From the NCBI GenBank assembly GCA_019455085.1, contig JACFNA010000004.1, positions 1-45,232 on the forward strand: a stretch of DNA of 45,232 nt, given 5' to 3'. The position numbers were made by a program, and so were the translations under genes. Below the pieces are notes generated by a model that was not told where the DNA came from, did not search any database, and saw nothing but the letters and a program-made list of their open reading frames with translations. This stretch comes from Chitinophagaceae bacterium. GTDB lineage: Bacteria; Bacteroidota; Bacteroidia; Chitinophagales; Chitinophagaceae. This document shows, piece after piece, positions 25,367 to 32,144 of the stretch. The stretch's first letter is position 1. Every line of letters begins with the position of its first letter.

Positions 25367-25951
25367 TCATATTTTGGCTGCCACCATGCTTCTCAGATAA
25401 GGAATGGTCTCGTTCAAAAACCAGGGATGATCCGCAATCCATTTCTTATTACGTGGAGAAGGATGAATCAGTGGAAAGCATAAGGGCAGATAAGATTTAT
25501 AATTTCTGATAGTTTCTGCCAGTGAGTCCTTTTGGGATGCAGCCAGATAGTAGTCTATAGCGTACTTTCCGATTAACAGCCTGACCGGAGCGGCCTTCAT
25601 TTGACCCAGAATTTGGGGGTGCCAGATATCTGCACAGGACTTATCAGGAGGAAGGTCGCCATGCAACCCTTTACCAGGATAGCAGAAATCGATGGGTATT
25701 ATAGAGAAGAGTTGAGGATTGTAGAATTGCTCATCTGTAACCCCCAACCAGTTTTTTAGAGTGCGCCCACTCATATCATCCCAGGGAATGCCGGTAGTGT
25801 CCACCTTTTTACCCGGAGCCTGTGAGATGATGATGAACTTACAGTCTGCTCCTAACTGGAACACAGCCCGCTTTCCCCGCGCATGATAGTAATTAATAAT
25901 TTGTGCTGAGAGTTCTTTCACCTGGGTTCGTTGTCGTTCAGTTTGACACAA
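25367..25951 (-). CDS. Uracil-DNA glycosylase superfamily protein
   Basis: A UDG-fold protein of up to 194 residues. Motif A is IIISQAPGKKVDTTGIPWDDMSGR and the C-terminal motif is PLIHPSPRN, followed by a conserved WF. CYPGKG and DLPPDKSCADIWHP are typical of the UDG-like family found next to housekeeping genes in many bacteria. The N-terminal CxxC that ligates Fe-S in family 4/5 enzymes is absent. The first in-frame start is TTG at 25951, which would overlap the reconstructed end of the SMR gene; GTG at 25921 is the alternative. It is the last gene of the mnmH-selD operon. DNA-repair activity is inferred from the fold, not proven. Confidence 0.78.
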   Translation of the reverse strand: MCQTERQRTQVKELSAQIINYYHARGKRAVFQLGADCKFIIISQAPGKKVDTTGIPWDDMSGRTLKNWLGVTDEQFYNPQLFSIIPIDFCYPGKGLHGDLPPDKSCADIWHPQILGQMKAAPVRLLIGKYAIDYYLAASQKDSLAETIRNYKSYLPLCFPLIHPSPRNKKWIADHPWFLNETIPYLRSMVAAKI

Positions 25952-25954
25952 GTT

Positions 25955-26263
25955 TTAAGCCAATGATGCTGCAGATAAGTGTGGAAAGAAAAAGAGCCTC
26001 CAGAAGTCAGCCGGTTCATTAAACAGCAGTAGCCCCATGATTACTGTGCCACACGCGCCGATACCCGTCCACACCGCATAAGCAGTACCGATAGGTATTG
26101 TCAGGGAAGCCTTGTAGAGTAATAGCATACTGATAGTAAGACATACAAAGAATCCGATAATCCAGAGCACGAATTCGGTACCAGATGCTTCTTTAGCCTT
26201 TCCCAGGCAGGTGGCAAATCCTATTTCAAAGAAACCCCCGATTATGAGTAGCACCCAGTTCAT
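25955..26263 (-). CDS. SMR-family efflux protein, C-terminus probably frameshifted
   Basis: A four-helix small multidrug resistance/guanidinium-exporter (SugE/Gdx-like) protein. Conserved Glu is E13 (GGFFEIGF), and AYAVWTGIGACGT is SugE-like. As read, the protein is 102 residues and ends FWRLFFFPHLSAASLA, which is not an SMR C-terminus. One extra base in the A5 run at 25989-25993 (T5 on the coding strand) restores FFLSTLICSIIGLKLVSN and a stop at 25938, giving a normal 108-residue protein. So either the genome has a real 1-nt deletion or the sequence has a homopolymer error. The ATG overlaps the selD stop (TAATG), indicating translational coupling. Confidence 0.8.
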   Translation of the reverse strand: MNWVLLIIGGFFEIGFATCLGKAKEASGTEFVLWIIGFFVCLTISMLLLYKASLTIPIGTAYAVWTGIGACGTVIMGLLLFNEPADFWRLFFFPHLSAASLA

Positions 26264-27327
26264 TATTGTACTAAAATAGTTCTTTCTTTCTTTTCGGTAA
26301 AGTATCCAATGGGATGCACAAACTCCTGAAGGCCTGAGCGCTCAAATAGTGAGATGAGTTTTTCCTTACCAGAAGGCGATATGGCTATCATCAGACCTCC
26401 ATTTGTCTGAGGATCAGGAAGCATACCAAAGGCCTCCATGAAATCGACGGACTTTGCTACTTCTATTTTGTCACTCATACTGTTCCAGTTGCGGTAGGTG
26501 GCATCGGGCATTACCCTTTGTTTCATATAGTGCCTGGCTCTTTCGTATATGGGTACCTGTGAGTATTCTAAAACAGCCGACAATCCGCTGCCTTCAGCCA
26601 TTTCCAGAAGATGTCCTGCAAGGCCAAATCCGGTGATATCCGTCATGGCAGAGACTTCGCCGATTCTCCCCACTTCTGCTCCAATGGAGTTGAGAGAGGA
26701 AAGCTCAGAAAGCAAAAAAGTGACATCGTCTTCAGTGATGACTTTTCTTTTTTGAGCAGTGGCGAGGATTCCTATGCCGATTGGCTGGGTGATAAAAATG
26801 AGGTCTCCCGGCCTGGCAGTATTGTTTCGCTTAAGGTGTTCAAGTGCCACCATACCATTCACGGCCAATCCGAAAAAAGGTTCTGCAGATTCTATACTAT
26901 GCCCTCCGGCCATACTTATCTTAGCCTGTGCGCAGACTTCTCTGGCGCCGGCAAGTACTTTACGGGCCTCAGTTGCTGGTATTTTTTCAGGCCACCCCAG
27001 AATGGCTACAGATAAAAGTGGTGTGCCGCCCATTGCATACACATCACTGATGGCATTTGCAGCCGCAATTTTCCCAAAAGAATATGCATCGTCCACTATG
27101 GGCATAAAGAAATCGGTAGTGGAAATAAGCGCCAGGCCATTTTGGAGATCATACACAGCAGCATCATCGTTATCACTATTCCCAACAATCAGTCTTCCAT
27201 CGGGGAAGCTGACTGATTCACTGAGAATATCTTTTAATACTTTAGGAGATATCTTGCATCCGCAACCGGCGCCTTTGGAGTACTCCGTAAGACGGTAGAT
27301 TGTAGCATCATTTGTGGCTGAATTCAT
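26263..27327 (-). CDS. selD: Selenide, water dikinase (selenophosphate synthase)
   Basis: A 354-residue enzyme making selenophosphate from selenide and ATP, the selenium donor for tRNA selenation and selenocysteine. The N-terminal catalytic motif is GAGCGCK, with Cys22 in the position that is Sec or Cys across the family and Lys25; this is the Cys form. ATP/metal motifs: DNDDAAVYDL, STTDFF and MAGGHSIESAEPFFGLAVNG. Its start overlaps the preceding gene by 20 nt and its stop overlaps the smr ATG. The first gene of the operon, mnmH, uses the product; no selA or selB is visible, so tRNA modification is the evident use here. Confidence 0.96.
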   Translation of the reverse strand: MNSATNDATIYRLTEYSKGAGCGCKISPKVLKDILSESVSFPDGRLIVGNSDNDDAAVYDLQNGLALISTTDFFMPIVDDAYSFGKIAAANAISDVYAMGGTPLLSVAILGWPEKIPATEARKVLAGAREVCAQAKISMAGGHSIESAEPFFGLAVNGMVALEHLKRNNTARPGDLIFITQPIGIGILATAQKRKVITEDDVTFLLSELSSLNSIGAEVGRIGEVSAMTDITGFGLAGHLLEMAEGSGLSAVLEYSQVPIYERARHYMKQRVMPDATYRNWNSMSDKIEVAKSVDFMEAFGMLPDPQTNGGLMIAISPSGKEKLISLFERSGLQEFVHPIGYFTEKKERTILVQ

Positions 27328-29365
27328 CTTGCTTATTTCGCAGCAAAATTATGGCAGAATTCTTTTGGAGGTCGCCGCTAAACCGAATTTCATACGTTTT
27401 GCTTTTGTCGCGTACAATAAGCAACCCTGAGTTTGGTGGAATGCTACCCAGGTTTTCAGCATACATTACAAGGTTGAGAGAGTCCCCCATTTCCGGAGTG
27501 ATGTGAAGGGTGTGATTAAAAGCTTCTTCCTTTAATCCAATGCGCGAAAGCAGGACGTCTCCATTGAGCAGGATACTCACGGTGTCGCCATCTACTATTC
27601 CATTGTCGTAGAGAGAAAGCACGATACTATCACTTGCCAGTTGAACGGTTTGGATAGTTTCAATCTTTCTTTTGGAGAGATCCGGGGCAGGTAGTGTGAC
27701 TTTTCCTTCACTGGCTACTGCAGTTGTGCCAGTGCGCCCATTTGAGGCGTTCTTTTCGCCCTCTCCGGACGGGGCTGTTATGCGTTTTGTCGGGGCTGAA
27801 GTTGTTTCCGGGTTTTTAACTGTCCGGGATGTGGTCTTATTGGTTGTGGTCTCAGAGGCTTTAACCTGTTTTTGGGCTGTGTCATGAGAGGCCAATCCTG
27901 TTTGTGTGTTTTCGGGCGATGTGGAGTTTGCTTTTTCTTTGGCGGCTGAGATTGTCTCTACTGTTGAGCTTTTGGGTAGTACCGGACTGCGGCTGGTATT
28001 ATCAGATGCAGGATTGCTGCTTATTAATTTTTTACTGTTGTTGTGCTCTTCCTGGTTTATCCGGGCAGTAGCTCCTTTGTTTTCAGTCTTTGAATCTTCA
28101 ATACTTTTACGTGTATCCTTCATCGATGTATTATCATCCTGCTGACCTGCTTTTGAGGACACAAATGTCGAATCTGATGATTGCCTGGTACCGCTCTTAG
28201 CGGTGGCCCGGGCGGATCCGGTAGTGGGTGGCACTACTTCCAACACATTGTTTTTCCTCGTATCTGCCTGTGATCCTGATGTGGCAGCGAGTGTGTTGTC
28301 CTGACGGCCCGGTGTCTCACCTTGTGTATTTGGAGCCACTGTTGGGGTGTTGGCGGAGGCTTTGGTTATCCCGGCCACAGAATTGCTATTCTTTTTCTGA
28401 TTCGCTTCTTGTATGATTAGCGCATTTTTGGAATTGACTTCACCAGACTGAGATTCACCGGTTCTAATTTCTTTCTTACCAGATTTTGCAATGCCTTCAC
28501 CGGGTGCGGCGGCAGCGTTTGGTTTGTCAGCCTTTGCGGATTCGTTGTTTTGTGCTACTTCTGTTTTGGTGTTGACAACTCCCGCTGTGGCTGCTTTTTC
28601 TGCTGTTTGCGCAGGAGGTGTGCTACCTGTTGCTTTTTTCATCGTTTCAGGAACACGAGACGCGGCGGAATCGATGAGTAATGTGAGTTGATCTGCATCT
28701 ATGCGTTTGATGAGGCGCGATGTATCTTTTTTAGGAACTGTAATCACGACTTCCGGTTCCATTATAGCCATAGTAGGTTCCGGTGACTCTTTTGATTTTT
28801 TTCTGTTTTTGTTTGTGCCGGCGATGTCGTTTGCAGGCTTTGGCTGCAGGAATGATAGTTTGTTTGCGAGGCCGAGCTTTTCAAGCCGGGGGATAATATT
28901 GGTACTATAAACCTGTCGTCTTTTTGTAAGAAATACAGCACCACCTACAGGATAAAAGAACCTGGTTTTGTTGGTAAACCATTTTCCACTCAGCACATCT
29001 GCCGTGTCATTTTGAGTATGTTCCAGTACAAGGGTGGTATATACCCCTTTGTCGGGGGCCTCAGTGTAGTTATCGTCAATAAGTTTTTTGTCGCGAATGG
29101 TAAAAGTCTGGTTTCTCTCTTTGACTGTCACCTCTTTCACTCCGATATTCGCAATACTGTCCACCATGAAGACGGTATAACTATAGCCCGACAAGTCGCC
29201 GCTGAAACGGCTTATCGCCACTTCGAACGGTATATATTTTTGGGTGGAATCATTGAACAGTGTTCCTGTCCAAACGCCGGCAATATCCCAATCCTTCTGG
29301 GCAAAGGAATTGAAAGAGATCAGTGCGAGCAGAATAGTGATAAAGGATTTCAAGCTAAAATTCAT
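27308..29365 (-). CDS. Large secreted protein with Ser/Thr/Lys/Asn-rich linker, function unknown
   Basis: A 685-residue exported protein; I do not recognise a functional family. Signal peptide ~1-22 (ending FNSFAQ). Residues ~25-165 form a beta-rich domain (WDIAGVWTGTLFNDSTQKYIPFEVAI). Residues ~170-545 are low-complexity, rich in S, T, K, N, A, P and Q, almost certainly disordered. Residues ~555-685 form a second beta domain (DSIVLSLYDNGIVDGDTVSILLNG) of a kind I associate with secreted proteins of this phylum. It sits inside the selenium operon: 1 nt after the mnmH stop and overlapping selD by 20 nt. The coupling is tight, but no selenium-related motif is seen. Confidence 0.75.
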   Translation of the reverse strand: MNFSLKSFITILLALISFNSFAQKDWDIAGVWTGTLFNDSTQKYIPFEVAISRFSGDLSGYSYTVFMVDSIANIGVKEVTVKERNQTFTIRDKKLIDDNYTEAPDKGVYTTLVLEHTQNDTADVLSGKWFTNKTRFFYPVGGAVFLTKRRQVYSTNIIPRLEKLGLANKLSFLQPKPANDIAGTNKNRKKSKESPEPTMAIMEPEVVITVPKKDTSRLIKRIDADQLTLLIDSAASRVPETMKKATGSTPPAQTAEKAATAGVVNTKTEVAQNNESAKADKPNAAAAPGEGIAKSGKKEIRTGESQSGEVNSKNALIIQEANQKKNSNSVAGITKASANTPTVAPNTQGETPGRQDNTLAATSGSQADTRKNNVLEVVPPTTGSARATAKSGTRQSSDSTFVSSKAGQQDDNTSMKDTRKSIEDSKTENKGATARINQEEHNNSKKLISSNPASDNTSRSPVLPKSSTVETISAAKEKANSTSPENTQTGLASHDTAQKQVKASETTTNKTTSRTVKNPETTSAPTKRITAPSGEGEKNASNGRTGTTAVASEGKVTLPAPDLSKRKIETIQTVQLASDSIVLSLYDNGIVDGDTVSILLNGDVLLSRIGLKEEAFNHTLHITPEMGDSLNLVMYAENLGSIPPNSGLLIVRDKSKTYEIRFSGDLQKNSAIILLRNKQDEFSHK

Positions 29366-29366
29366 A

Positions 29367-30422
29367 TCAGGTCAACCTTGGAGGGTTTAGGGCCAGACTG
29401 TTTTTAACTGTAACGCTTTCACAGGGTATTTTATGCAGGATCTGCGTGATATTTTCACGGTTGAACAGCGAATGTTGATATAATTTGTCGTAATATCTGA
29501 GCAGAATCGCAAAACATTCCTTCGCCTCGTTATTTTTCAGGTGATTGAGGGCGTTTTGTGTTTCGAGTCCGCCAAGCCTTTTTTTAATTTTCGTTACACA
29601 TGCGGCAAGGTCTTCATTGGAGAATCTCCCGTATCCTTTCGTAATATAATCGAGACGCTGGCTTGCGGGTATTTCAAGGAAATACAGGGGACTCGCTCTC
29701 ATTTGATCCCATATTGAGTTGGGCAAATGTATGATTCCGATATGGCGGCTTTCGTCTTCAAGCCAGATGGGGCCATCTCCGGGCTTTGACGACTGGTTAT
29801 GCAATTCCATGGCCAGCAGGTTTTCGAACATTTCCTGTGATGGCTGATTGTCCATCCCCAATGAGCCGAATGCAGACCCTTTATGGCTGGCAAGCCCTTC
29901 GAGATCGATTATTTTATGCCCTTCTTTCCGGAGTTCATAAAGCAGTTCTGTCTTACCCGATCCGGTATATCCGCCTAACAAAGAGAAATTATATTTCTTC
30001 TCAAACTGTGAGAGCGCCCATCTTCTAAATGCCTTATATCCACCTTTAAGGAGGTAGATTTTATAACCATATAAGCTTAATAGCCATGCGATAGCCTCGC
30101 TTCGCATCCCGCCACGCCAGCAATGAATCATGAAAGTAGGTAAACCCTTATTTCCGTGCGATTGAAAAATTTCTAATGCTTTATCAGGGATATGTTTAAT
30201 GCTTTCAGCGAAGTATCCTATACCTATGTCCACAGCCTGAGGTCTTCCCTGCTGTTTGTAGGCAGTGCCAATAGCGGCCCGTTGTTCATTATCAAAAATG
30301 GGGAGCGTATATGCCCCCGGAATACAGGCATGAGCGTATTCGCCCGGACTTCTCACGTCGAGTATCGGATATGTCCGGCTCTTTTCAATAAAATCTTCTA
30401 TGTCCGTTTTCTCTATTGGCAT
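29367..30422 (-). CDS. mnmH: tRNA 2-selenouridine synthase
   Basis: A 351-residue enzyme (SelU/MnmH/YbbB) that converts 2-thiouridine at the wobble position of certain tRNAs to 2-selenouridine using selenophosphate. The N-terminal rhodanese domain has the catalytic Cys101 in HCWRGGMRS (E. coli Cys97 equivalent). The C-terminal part has a P-loop, GGYTGSGKTELL. Start at ATG 30422; a GTG at 30437 lies in the terminator hairpin of rho. It heads the mnmH - secreted protein - selD - smr - UDG operon. Only 4 nt separate its ATG from the T-run of the rho terminator, so its transcript probably depends on read-through or starts within that hairpin region. Confidence 0.94.
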   Translation of the reverse strand: MPIEKTDIEDFIEKSRTYPILDVRSPGEYAHACIPGAYTLPIFDNEQRAAIGTAYKQQGRPQAVDIGIGYFAESIKHIPDKALEIFQSHGNKGLPTFMIHCWRGGMRSEAIAWLLSLYGYKIYLLKGGYKAFRRWALSQFEKKYNFSLLGGYTGSGKTELLYELRKEGHKIIDLEGLASHKGSAFGSLGMDNQPSQEMFENLLAMELHNQSSKPGDGPIWLEDESRHIGIIHLPNSIWDQMRASPLYFLEIPASQRLDYITKGYGRFSNEDLAACVTKIKKRLGGLETQNALNHLKNNEAKECFAILLRYYDKLYQHSLFNRENITQILHKIPCESVTVKNSLALNPPRLT

Positions 30423-30425
30423 GGC

Positions 30426-30450
30426 AAAAAAAACCACCGCGGAGCAGTGG
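30426..30450 (-). terminator. Rho-independent terminator or attenuator between rho and mnmH
   Basis: On the - strand: CCACTGC (30450-30444), loop TCC, GCGGTGG (30440-30434), then eight T (the A-run 30426-30433). One G-U pair. It lies ~24 nt after the rho stop and ends 4 nt before the mnmH ATG, so it could act as terminator or as an attenuator in the mnmH leader. Confidence 0.85.
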
Positions 30451-30473
30451 CAATTTTGTTTGATATTTCAATC

Positions 30474-32144
30474 TTATCCGTTCATACTTGTGAGGAACTC
30501 TGAGTTATCTTTTGTTCCTTTCATATTTTTCAGGAGCATACTGATGGCTTCTTCCGGGTTCATGTCGGCAATGTGGTTACGAAGTACCCACATTCTCTGG
30601 AGCACATCCTTATCCATCAGCAGGTCGTCGCGGCGTGTAGATGAAGAGATGATATCGATAGCTGGGAAGATGCGGCGGTTGCTGAGTCTGCGATCCAACT
30701 GCAACTCCATGTTACCGGTTCCCTTGAACTCTTCAAAGATTACTTCGTCCATCTTGCTTCCTGTATCTACCAATGCGGTAGCGATAATGGTAAGGCTTCC
30801 ACCGTTTTCAATCTTACGGGCTGCACCGAAAAATTGTTTTGGCTTCTGCATGGCGTTGGCCTCCACACCTCCGGAGAGCACTTTACCGCTGGCAGGAGAG
30901 ACGGTATTGTGCGCGCGCGCAAGGCGTGTGATACTATCCAGCAGAATCACTACATCGTGCCCACTCTCTACCAGTCGCTTGGCTTTCTGCAGTGCCATTG
31001 TGCTTACTTTTACATGCTTTTCCGCAGGTTCGTCAAATGTAGAGGCAATTACTTCAGCCTTCACACTGCGTTCCATATCGGTTACCTCTTCCGGGCGCTC
31101 ATCCACCAACACTATCATCAGGTAACATTCAGGATGATTAGCTGCGATGGCATTGGCAACTTCCTTGAGCAGCATGGTCTTACCCGTCTTGGGTTGTGCT
31201 ACAATCAATCCCCTCTGCCCTTTACCTATGGGAGTAAACAGGTCCATAATACGTGTGCTGTAGTTGGTAGGGCCGGTAAAAAGATTGAGCTTTTCGTAAG
31301 GAAATAAGGGTGTCAGATAGTCAAATGGTACCCGGTCGCGCACTTCTTCCGGCTTCTTGCCGTTGATTGTGTCCACCTTGAGTACGGCAAAATATTTTTC
31401 TCCTTCTTTTGGGGGCCTCACTGTGCCATTTACGGTGTCACCTGTTCTGAGTCCGAAGAGCTTTATCTGGCTTGGAGATACATATACATCGTCGGGAGAC
31501 GACAGGTAGTTATAGTCGCTGCTTCTGAGAAAACCATATCCGTCGGGCATCATTTCCAATACTCCTTCTGCTTCGATGATACCGTCAAATTCCAGATTGA
31601 AATTGGTTTCTTTCTTTTGCTTTTGTTGTGGCATCGCCTGAGTAGCCTCTTCTTCAGCAATTTCTTCGGGGAGTTCCAAATCTACTTCTTCATCGTCTTT
31701 AAGCATTTCCAGAAGGGATGGGGCTATGGTTTTGGGGTCGGCCAGTTCTTCTCCATTCTCTTCAACACCTGCCTTATCAGCCGTTACTTCACCCGAAACA
31801 TTCTCCTGTGGAGTCGGCTTGCTTTTTATAACGGGTTTTCTCCGATCCTGTACTTTTCTGGCGGGTTCTGCGCTTTGCATGGCACCGGTGTCCTCTTTGC
31901 TTTCAGGAGTGGCAGCAGATTCATTTTCTTTATTGCCACCGGCCGGCTTGACGATGCGTTTACGTTTGGGGCGAGCACCTTCGGAAGTCTCTTTTTTCTC
32001 GTTTTCCATTGTGGATTGGTTATTAATTATTTTTTCTATTAGATCTTGTTTTTTCAGGTGCTGAACTTCAGGGATGTTTTGCTGCTCAGCAATATCAAGC
32101 AACTCAGGAACGAGCATGTCGTTCAGTTGGTGTATGTTATACAT
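30474..32144 (-). CDS. rho: Transcription termination factor Rho
   Basis: A 556-residue hexameric RNA-dependent ATPase that ends transcription. Rho_N helical domain 1-42 ([16 protein letters not shown]), then a charged low-complexity insertion ~43-182 (K/R/E/P-rich, then acidic), an RNA-binding cold-shock-type domain ~185-265 ([20 protein letters not shown]), P-loop AQPKTGKT (316-323), and downstream [10 protein letters not shown] and [12 protein letters not shown]. coli Rho is ~419 residues; the extra ~140 are the insertion, known as a disordered region in Bacteroidota Rho. Its own mRNA is followed by an intrinsic terminator, which protects against lack of Rho activity. Confidence 0.97.

Follow-up and report, generated by a model that had tools for sequence, protein, structure and literature searches.

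A gene for a putative exported two-domain protein embedded in a tRNA-selenation operon of Chitinophagaceae

Among the closest described counterparts of the locus analysed here is the selenouridine (SeU) trait of Bacteroidota, in which SelD produces selenophosphate and MnmH (YbbB) replaces the sulfur of 2-thiouridine with selenium at position 34 in certain tRNAs. The parts of PMC5322559 that treat the Bacteroidetes attribute SeU to many of them and describe the phylum as being without selenocysteine decoding. At loci that do not hold the exported-protein gene considered in this work (SEC), mnmH and selD overlap or lie at most 30 nt apart in 33 of 38 cases scored (6 of 44 were not scored). Reading frames unrelated to SEC also occur between the two genes, encoding 391 aa in antisense (G213), 238 aa (G189) or 129 aa (G020), at L105, L107 and L108, and one genome (G193; L104, L127) has two mnmH genes from different MnmH groups, one in a SEC locus and the other with selD.

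Our window is a stretch of 45,232 nt (contig JACFNA010000004.1, assembly GCA_019455085.1) from a draft genome of 441 contigs that is 95.9% complete and whose source we infer to belong to Ginsengibacter, Chitinophagaceae. The preliminary description listed five tightly packed genes with 1-nt gaps or overlaps, and all of the reading frames are present on the minus strand as listed. mnmH (29367–30422, ATG start, with a GTG at 30437 also possible) encodes a tRNA 2-selenouridine synthase, which scores 350 bits against NF008750 (curated cut-off 241) and 328 bits against TIGR03167, over its cut-off, and combines a rhodanese domain (PF00581) carrying HCWRGG with the P-loop GGYTGSGKT. After a 1-nt gap comes SEC (27308–29365), encoding 685 aa, which overlaps by 20 nt with selD (26263–27327), a selenophosphate synthase gene identified by NF002098 (427 bits, curated cut-off 299) and TIGR00476 (385 bits); the motif GAGCGCK, read from the sequence, marks it as the Cys form. 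We take the cysteines of HCWRGG and GAGCGCK to be the catalytic residues. A 1-nt overlap leads to an SMR-family efflux gene (25955–26263; PF00893, 72 bits, over cut-off), and a 3-nt gap to a gene for a UDG-superfamily, UDG-like protein (25367–25951; PF03167, 68 bits, over cut-off). Upstream, on the same strand, lies rho (30474–32144; NF006886, 669 bits), the constant family-wide neighbour of SEC. The SMR gene has five T at 25989–25993 where the DNA alignment has six in G017 and G004, which shifts the last codons and is either a genuine mutation or an error in the draft assembly. An SMR gene also follows or adjoins selD in several other genomes (L038, L039, L057, L190, L191), among them G104 and, convergently, G109, both outside the genus.

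mnmH and selD had been proposed to form a tRNA-selenation pathway, with no selA or selB in view; a selenocysteine decoding system elsewhere in the genome, as the main use of SelD, would have refuted this. None was found: genome-wide searches returned no match for selA, six for selB and seven for tRNA-Sec, none of the latter two sets over its cut-off, and ARAGORN types all seven tRNA candidates as Ser, Leu or Gly tRNAs. We therefore reject selenocysteine decoding as the use of SelD, which most likely serves MnmH only. MnmH and SelD each exceed their curated cut-offs, SelA, SelB and tRNA-Sec are missing at that level from a genome 95.9% complete, and SeU without selenocysteine decoding is ordinary for the phylum, going by what PMC5322559 says of the Bacteroidetes.

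The protein encoded between them represents an undescribed two-domain, putatively exported family of Chitinophagaceae. It begins with a putative signal peptide (residues 1–23, 29297–29365, minus strand, as are the parts that follow; MNFSLKSFITILLALISFNSFAQ) with no lipobox Cys. The N-domain (residues 24–174, 28844–29296) is modelled by AF2 (pLDDT 93.0, pTM 0.88) as an eight-strand meander barrel of avidin/lipocalin-like form, with an invariant GxWxG; its best structural match by VIA is a designed barrel (Z 12.2, 104 residues aligned, rmsd 2.1), and Foldseek alone gave no match at E ≤ 0.001. A Thr/Ala/Ser/Lys-rich tether of 387 aa (27683–28843) leads to the C-domain (residues 562–685, 27311–27682), which is modelled (pLDDT 88.4, pTM 0.81) as a nine-strand β-sandwich with invariant DNGxxDGDTV and YAENLGxxPPN. 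In an alignment of seventeen orthologues both end domains are conserved, and the tether between them ranges over 28–498 aa, falling to 28 aa in G012 and 30 aa in G022, where it is nearly gone. What had been described as a large disordered secreted protein is thus disordered in its freely varying tether, and the two predicted folded domains had been missed. No cysteine occurs in the SEC of the window, and beyond residue 35 cysteine is likewise absent from 71 of 107 distinct family proteins, which counts against ligation of selenium by cysteine.

Neither domain matches a Pfam family over cut-off, no NCBIfam family matches SEC at E 0.1, and the best E value of the domains against PDB sequences is 0.24. 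A GeBP-like_C hit in Pfam (20.5 bits, below the cut-off of 27) spans 34 residues, belongs to a plant family and was set aside as chance; T9SS cargo was likewise rejected, as no NCBIfam model of a C-terminal sorting domain matched. A search of 5.39 million open papers for the mnmH–SEC–selD order or the SEC protein found none.

The gene order is not peculiar to this genome. SEC has a match in all 19 other genomes of the genus, and mnmH–SEC–selD stands on a single contig in 14 of the 20 (the window's own counted; the reading frames of G008 are broken), with contig ends cutting it into fitting pieces in another five (G003, G005, G014, G015, G018). G010 is the exception, with mnmH adjoining selD and SEC elsewhere. 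In G015 in-frame stops interrupt the SEC copy that follows mnmH, and a different contig carries a second copy. The contig NZ_VYQF01000001.1 of Ginsengibacter hankyongi, a cultivable relative, carries the operon, its locus covering the same SEC match as that of G016. Recurrence in the genus, in the family and in other genera rules out an insertion confined to one genome, one of the two outcomes that had been named as fatal to the original proposal. The coupling recurs as well: of 58 distinct loci drawn from all sampled genera, 55 have mnmH and SEC separated by no more than 50 nt and 9 show a 4-nt overlap, with the caveat that gaps were scored from longest-ORF starts and overlaps may be overstated.

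Across the family, we defined presence of SEC as an N-domain match of at least 100 bits, and on this basis SEC occurs in 36 of 195 genomes, at 42 places; among 298 genomes sampled across the order, every match of at least 90 bits falls in Chitinophagaceae. rho is upstream of SEC in 31 of the 36 genomes. mnmH precedes SEC in 22, with selD behind or, in G115 and G193, the contig ending there. In eleven others SEC follows rho without an intervening selenium gene (G022, G089, G125, G203, G182, G210, G201, G127, G092, G177, G076), and in three (G188, G144, G109) neither rho nor mnmH is beside SEC. In six of the eleven (G022, G125, the 60% complete G182, G092, G177, G076) neither MnmH nor SelD reaches its cut-off in the whole genome, and with G144, whose SEC is not beside rho, the SEC-bearing genomes of this kind number seven; the other five of the eleven carry a SEC-free mnmH–selD pair elsewhere. 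MnmH and SelD each exceed their cut-offs in 104 of the 195 genomes, and 76 of the 104 with MnmH have no SEC at 100 bits or more. SEC is more frequent with MnmH (28 of 104 genomes) than without it (8 of 91; Fisher p 0.0014, kinship ignored; G188, with a sub-cut-off MnmH fragment at a contig end, was scored as without). SEC is tied to the rho locus and not to selenium, and a special tie between SEC and selenium is not supported. SEC is retained where the selenium genes are gone, so that it probably has an envelope job of its own.

We also compared 69 distinct rho-bearing loci, most of them fetched because they hold SEC, so that the ratio of loci with and without SEC in a Rho tree is meaningless and only changes in the presence of selenium genes were used. 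The order mnmH, SEC, selD is kept in 45 of the 69, four of which (L246, L253, L267, L271) carry an extra SEC, or an N-domain alone, between rho and mnmH, giving rho–SEC–mnmH–SEC–selD in L246, L253 and L267. The remainder comprises 2 loci cut after mnmH–SEC, 14 with rho–SEC only, 4 with mnmH–selD, 2 with mnmH alone, 1 reading rho–SEC–mnmH–selD (L276) and 1 unscored (L254), which was omitted from the tree as its mnmH–SEC–selD lies 2.8 kb from rho, past our 2.5-kb rule. On a quick Rho tree of the other 68 loci, the presence of selenium genes at rho requires seven changes, five of these being forced by well supported branches; the selenium genes thus came or went beside SEC several times while SEC stayed. 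A quick MnmH tree places all 35 SEC-locus rows in one 65-row group (SH-aLRT 99) together with 30 SEC-free rows, which requires 6 label changes.

Among 22 paralogue loci (L278 6055–7194; L277 4916–5983; L279–L298), 14 have a more distant SEC paralogue in divergent orientation beside thrS–infC, which gives the family two stable homes beside housekeeping genes. This paralogue is sometimes a tandem pair. A link to the T9SS translocon protein SprA, raised by a paralogue beside ruvA–sprA in L278, was dropped, as the constant neighbour is thrS–infC.

Between rho and the start of mnmH, a hairpin scan found a terminator-like hairpin with a T run behind it (30433–30451, minus strand); its stem stops 10 nt short of the mnmH start. 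The scan total is not above that of shuffles (10 against a mean of 9.6); after rho, terminator-like sites occur in 40 of the 69 loci against 14 of 1380 mononucleotide-shuffled spacers. Among congeners the stem sequence varies while pairing, judged by eye, is kept; it is not evident in G012. The unit after rho is therefore probably separate from rho, or attenuated after it. Judged from the overlaps, mnmH, SEC and selD would be co-transcribed, and since the coupling of the exported-protein gene on both sides is conserved in relatives, shared expression, in line with the operon control that had been suggested for it, is likely. The selenouridine unit, the coupling and the conservation claimed in the preliminary description all stand; its surface factor remains a guess, the envelope location being read from the signal peptide only.

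Taken together, we think it reasonably probable that SEC is an envelope binding protein that has been inherited in the tRNA-selenation operon and is expressed with it, independently of selenium. SEC would be exported to the envelope, where its barrel may bind a ligand or partner and its β-sandwich may anchor the protein to an envelope polymer; the gene lies downstream of rho, and in many lineages mnmH and selD flank it as an inherited operon in which its translation would be coupled to that of mnmH. Ligand binding in the envelope is the most likely job of SEC, and its persistence after the selenium genes leave indicates that this work is independent of selenium. Four observations sit uneasily with this reading: the excess of SEC among MnmH-bearing genomes; the repeated interleaving of SEC and selenium genes, as in L246, L253 and L267, which goes beyond what would be expected of passive hitchhiking; the hairpin between rho and mnmH, which speaks against SEC as a simple rho-operon gene; and a C-domain without a decisive structural match, which makes anchoring a guess.

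A plainer account, possible and distinctly less probable than the one we favour, is that the arrangement reflects chromosomal inheritance alone, the asnS–rho region being stable and shared regulation irrelevant. The paralogue is equally stable beside thrS–infC, and the same asnS–rho side is retained with or without selenium genes; against this, mnmH and SEC overlap or stand a short gap apart at 55 of 58 loci, which suggests shared translation, beyond mere neighbourhood.

We regard as improbable that SEC is a selenium factor, one that carries or scavenges a selenium compound in the periplasm to feed SelD and MnmH. Its conserved position and tight coupling, the enrichment with MnmH (kinship ignored), the repeated interleaving and duplication around mnmH and a barrel of a ligand-binding kind would all suit such a role, but the seven SEC genomes without MnmH or SelD over cut-off, the five with SEC at rho and a SEC-free mnmH–selD pair elsewhere, the 76 MnmH-bearing genomes without SEC at the threshold and the lack of cysteine argue against it. 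Rather less probable still is the version in which the barrel captures, outside the cytoplasm, selenium in an oxidised or organic compound, with translation coupled to SelD and MnmH, and lineages that lost SeU kept SEC for another ligand, such as a related sulfur compound. That control is shared for a reason, an envelope factor being needed whenever selenated tRNA is, fits the tight two-sided coupling and its wide conservation, but is very improbable; where the selenium genes are absent, SEC persists in a different arrangement.

The locus is a real, conserved and ordinary tRNA-selenation operon, and the gene that it carries defines an undescribed two-domain, putatively exported family without Pfam or NCBIfam match and with a clear genomic home. 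It also offers a clean case of operon membership misleading, where association points to selenium and selenium-free genomes contradict it. Were the selenium reading true, SEC would act outside the cytoplasm as a dedicated selenium factor.

Measured against known systems, the locus shares with the SelD/MnmH (YbbB) trait of Bacteroidota an MnmH and a Cys-form SelD without SelA, SelB or tRNA-Sec, and differs in that an exported-protein gene separates mnmH from selD. The C-domain has as its top structural matches the Ca-dependent carbohydrate-binding modules CBM60 (Z 6.3, 87 residues aligned, rmsd 2.9) and CBM36 (Z 6.2), without a Pfam match; all VIA scores are below 8, a range that may reflect a common sandwich, Foldseek gave no match at E ≤ 0.001, and the lack of a match is no evidence that the fold is new. 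With the avidin/streptavidin fold, the N-domain shares a predicted eight-strand barrel, a GxW near the N terminus and VIA Z scores of 10–11 to many avidins, over alignments of about 105 of its 151 residues. It differs from avidin in that SEC has no Pfam avidin or lipocalin match (none to avidin among 17 members at E 0.1) and no PDB sequence match, so that we reject membership of the avidin family and the resemblance is of fold only, and in that its barrel is tethered to a second domain.
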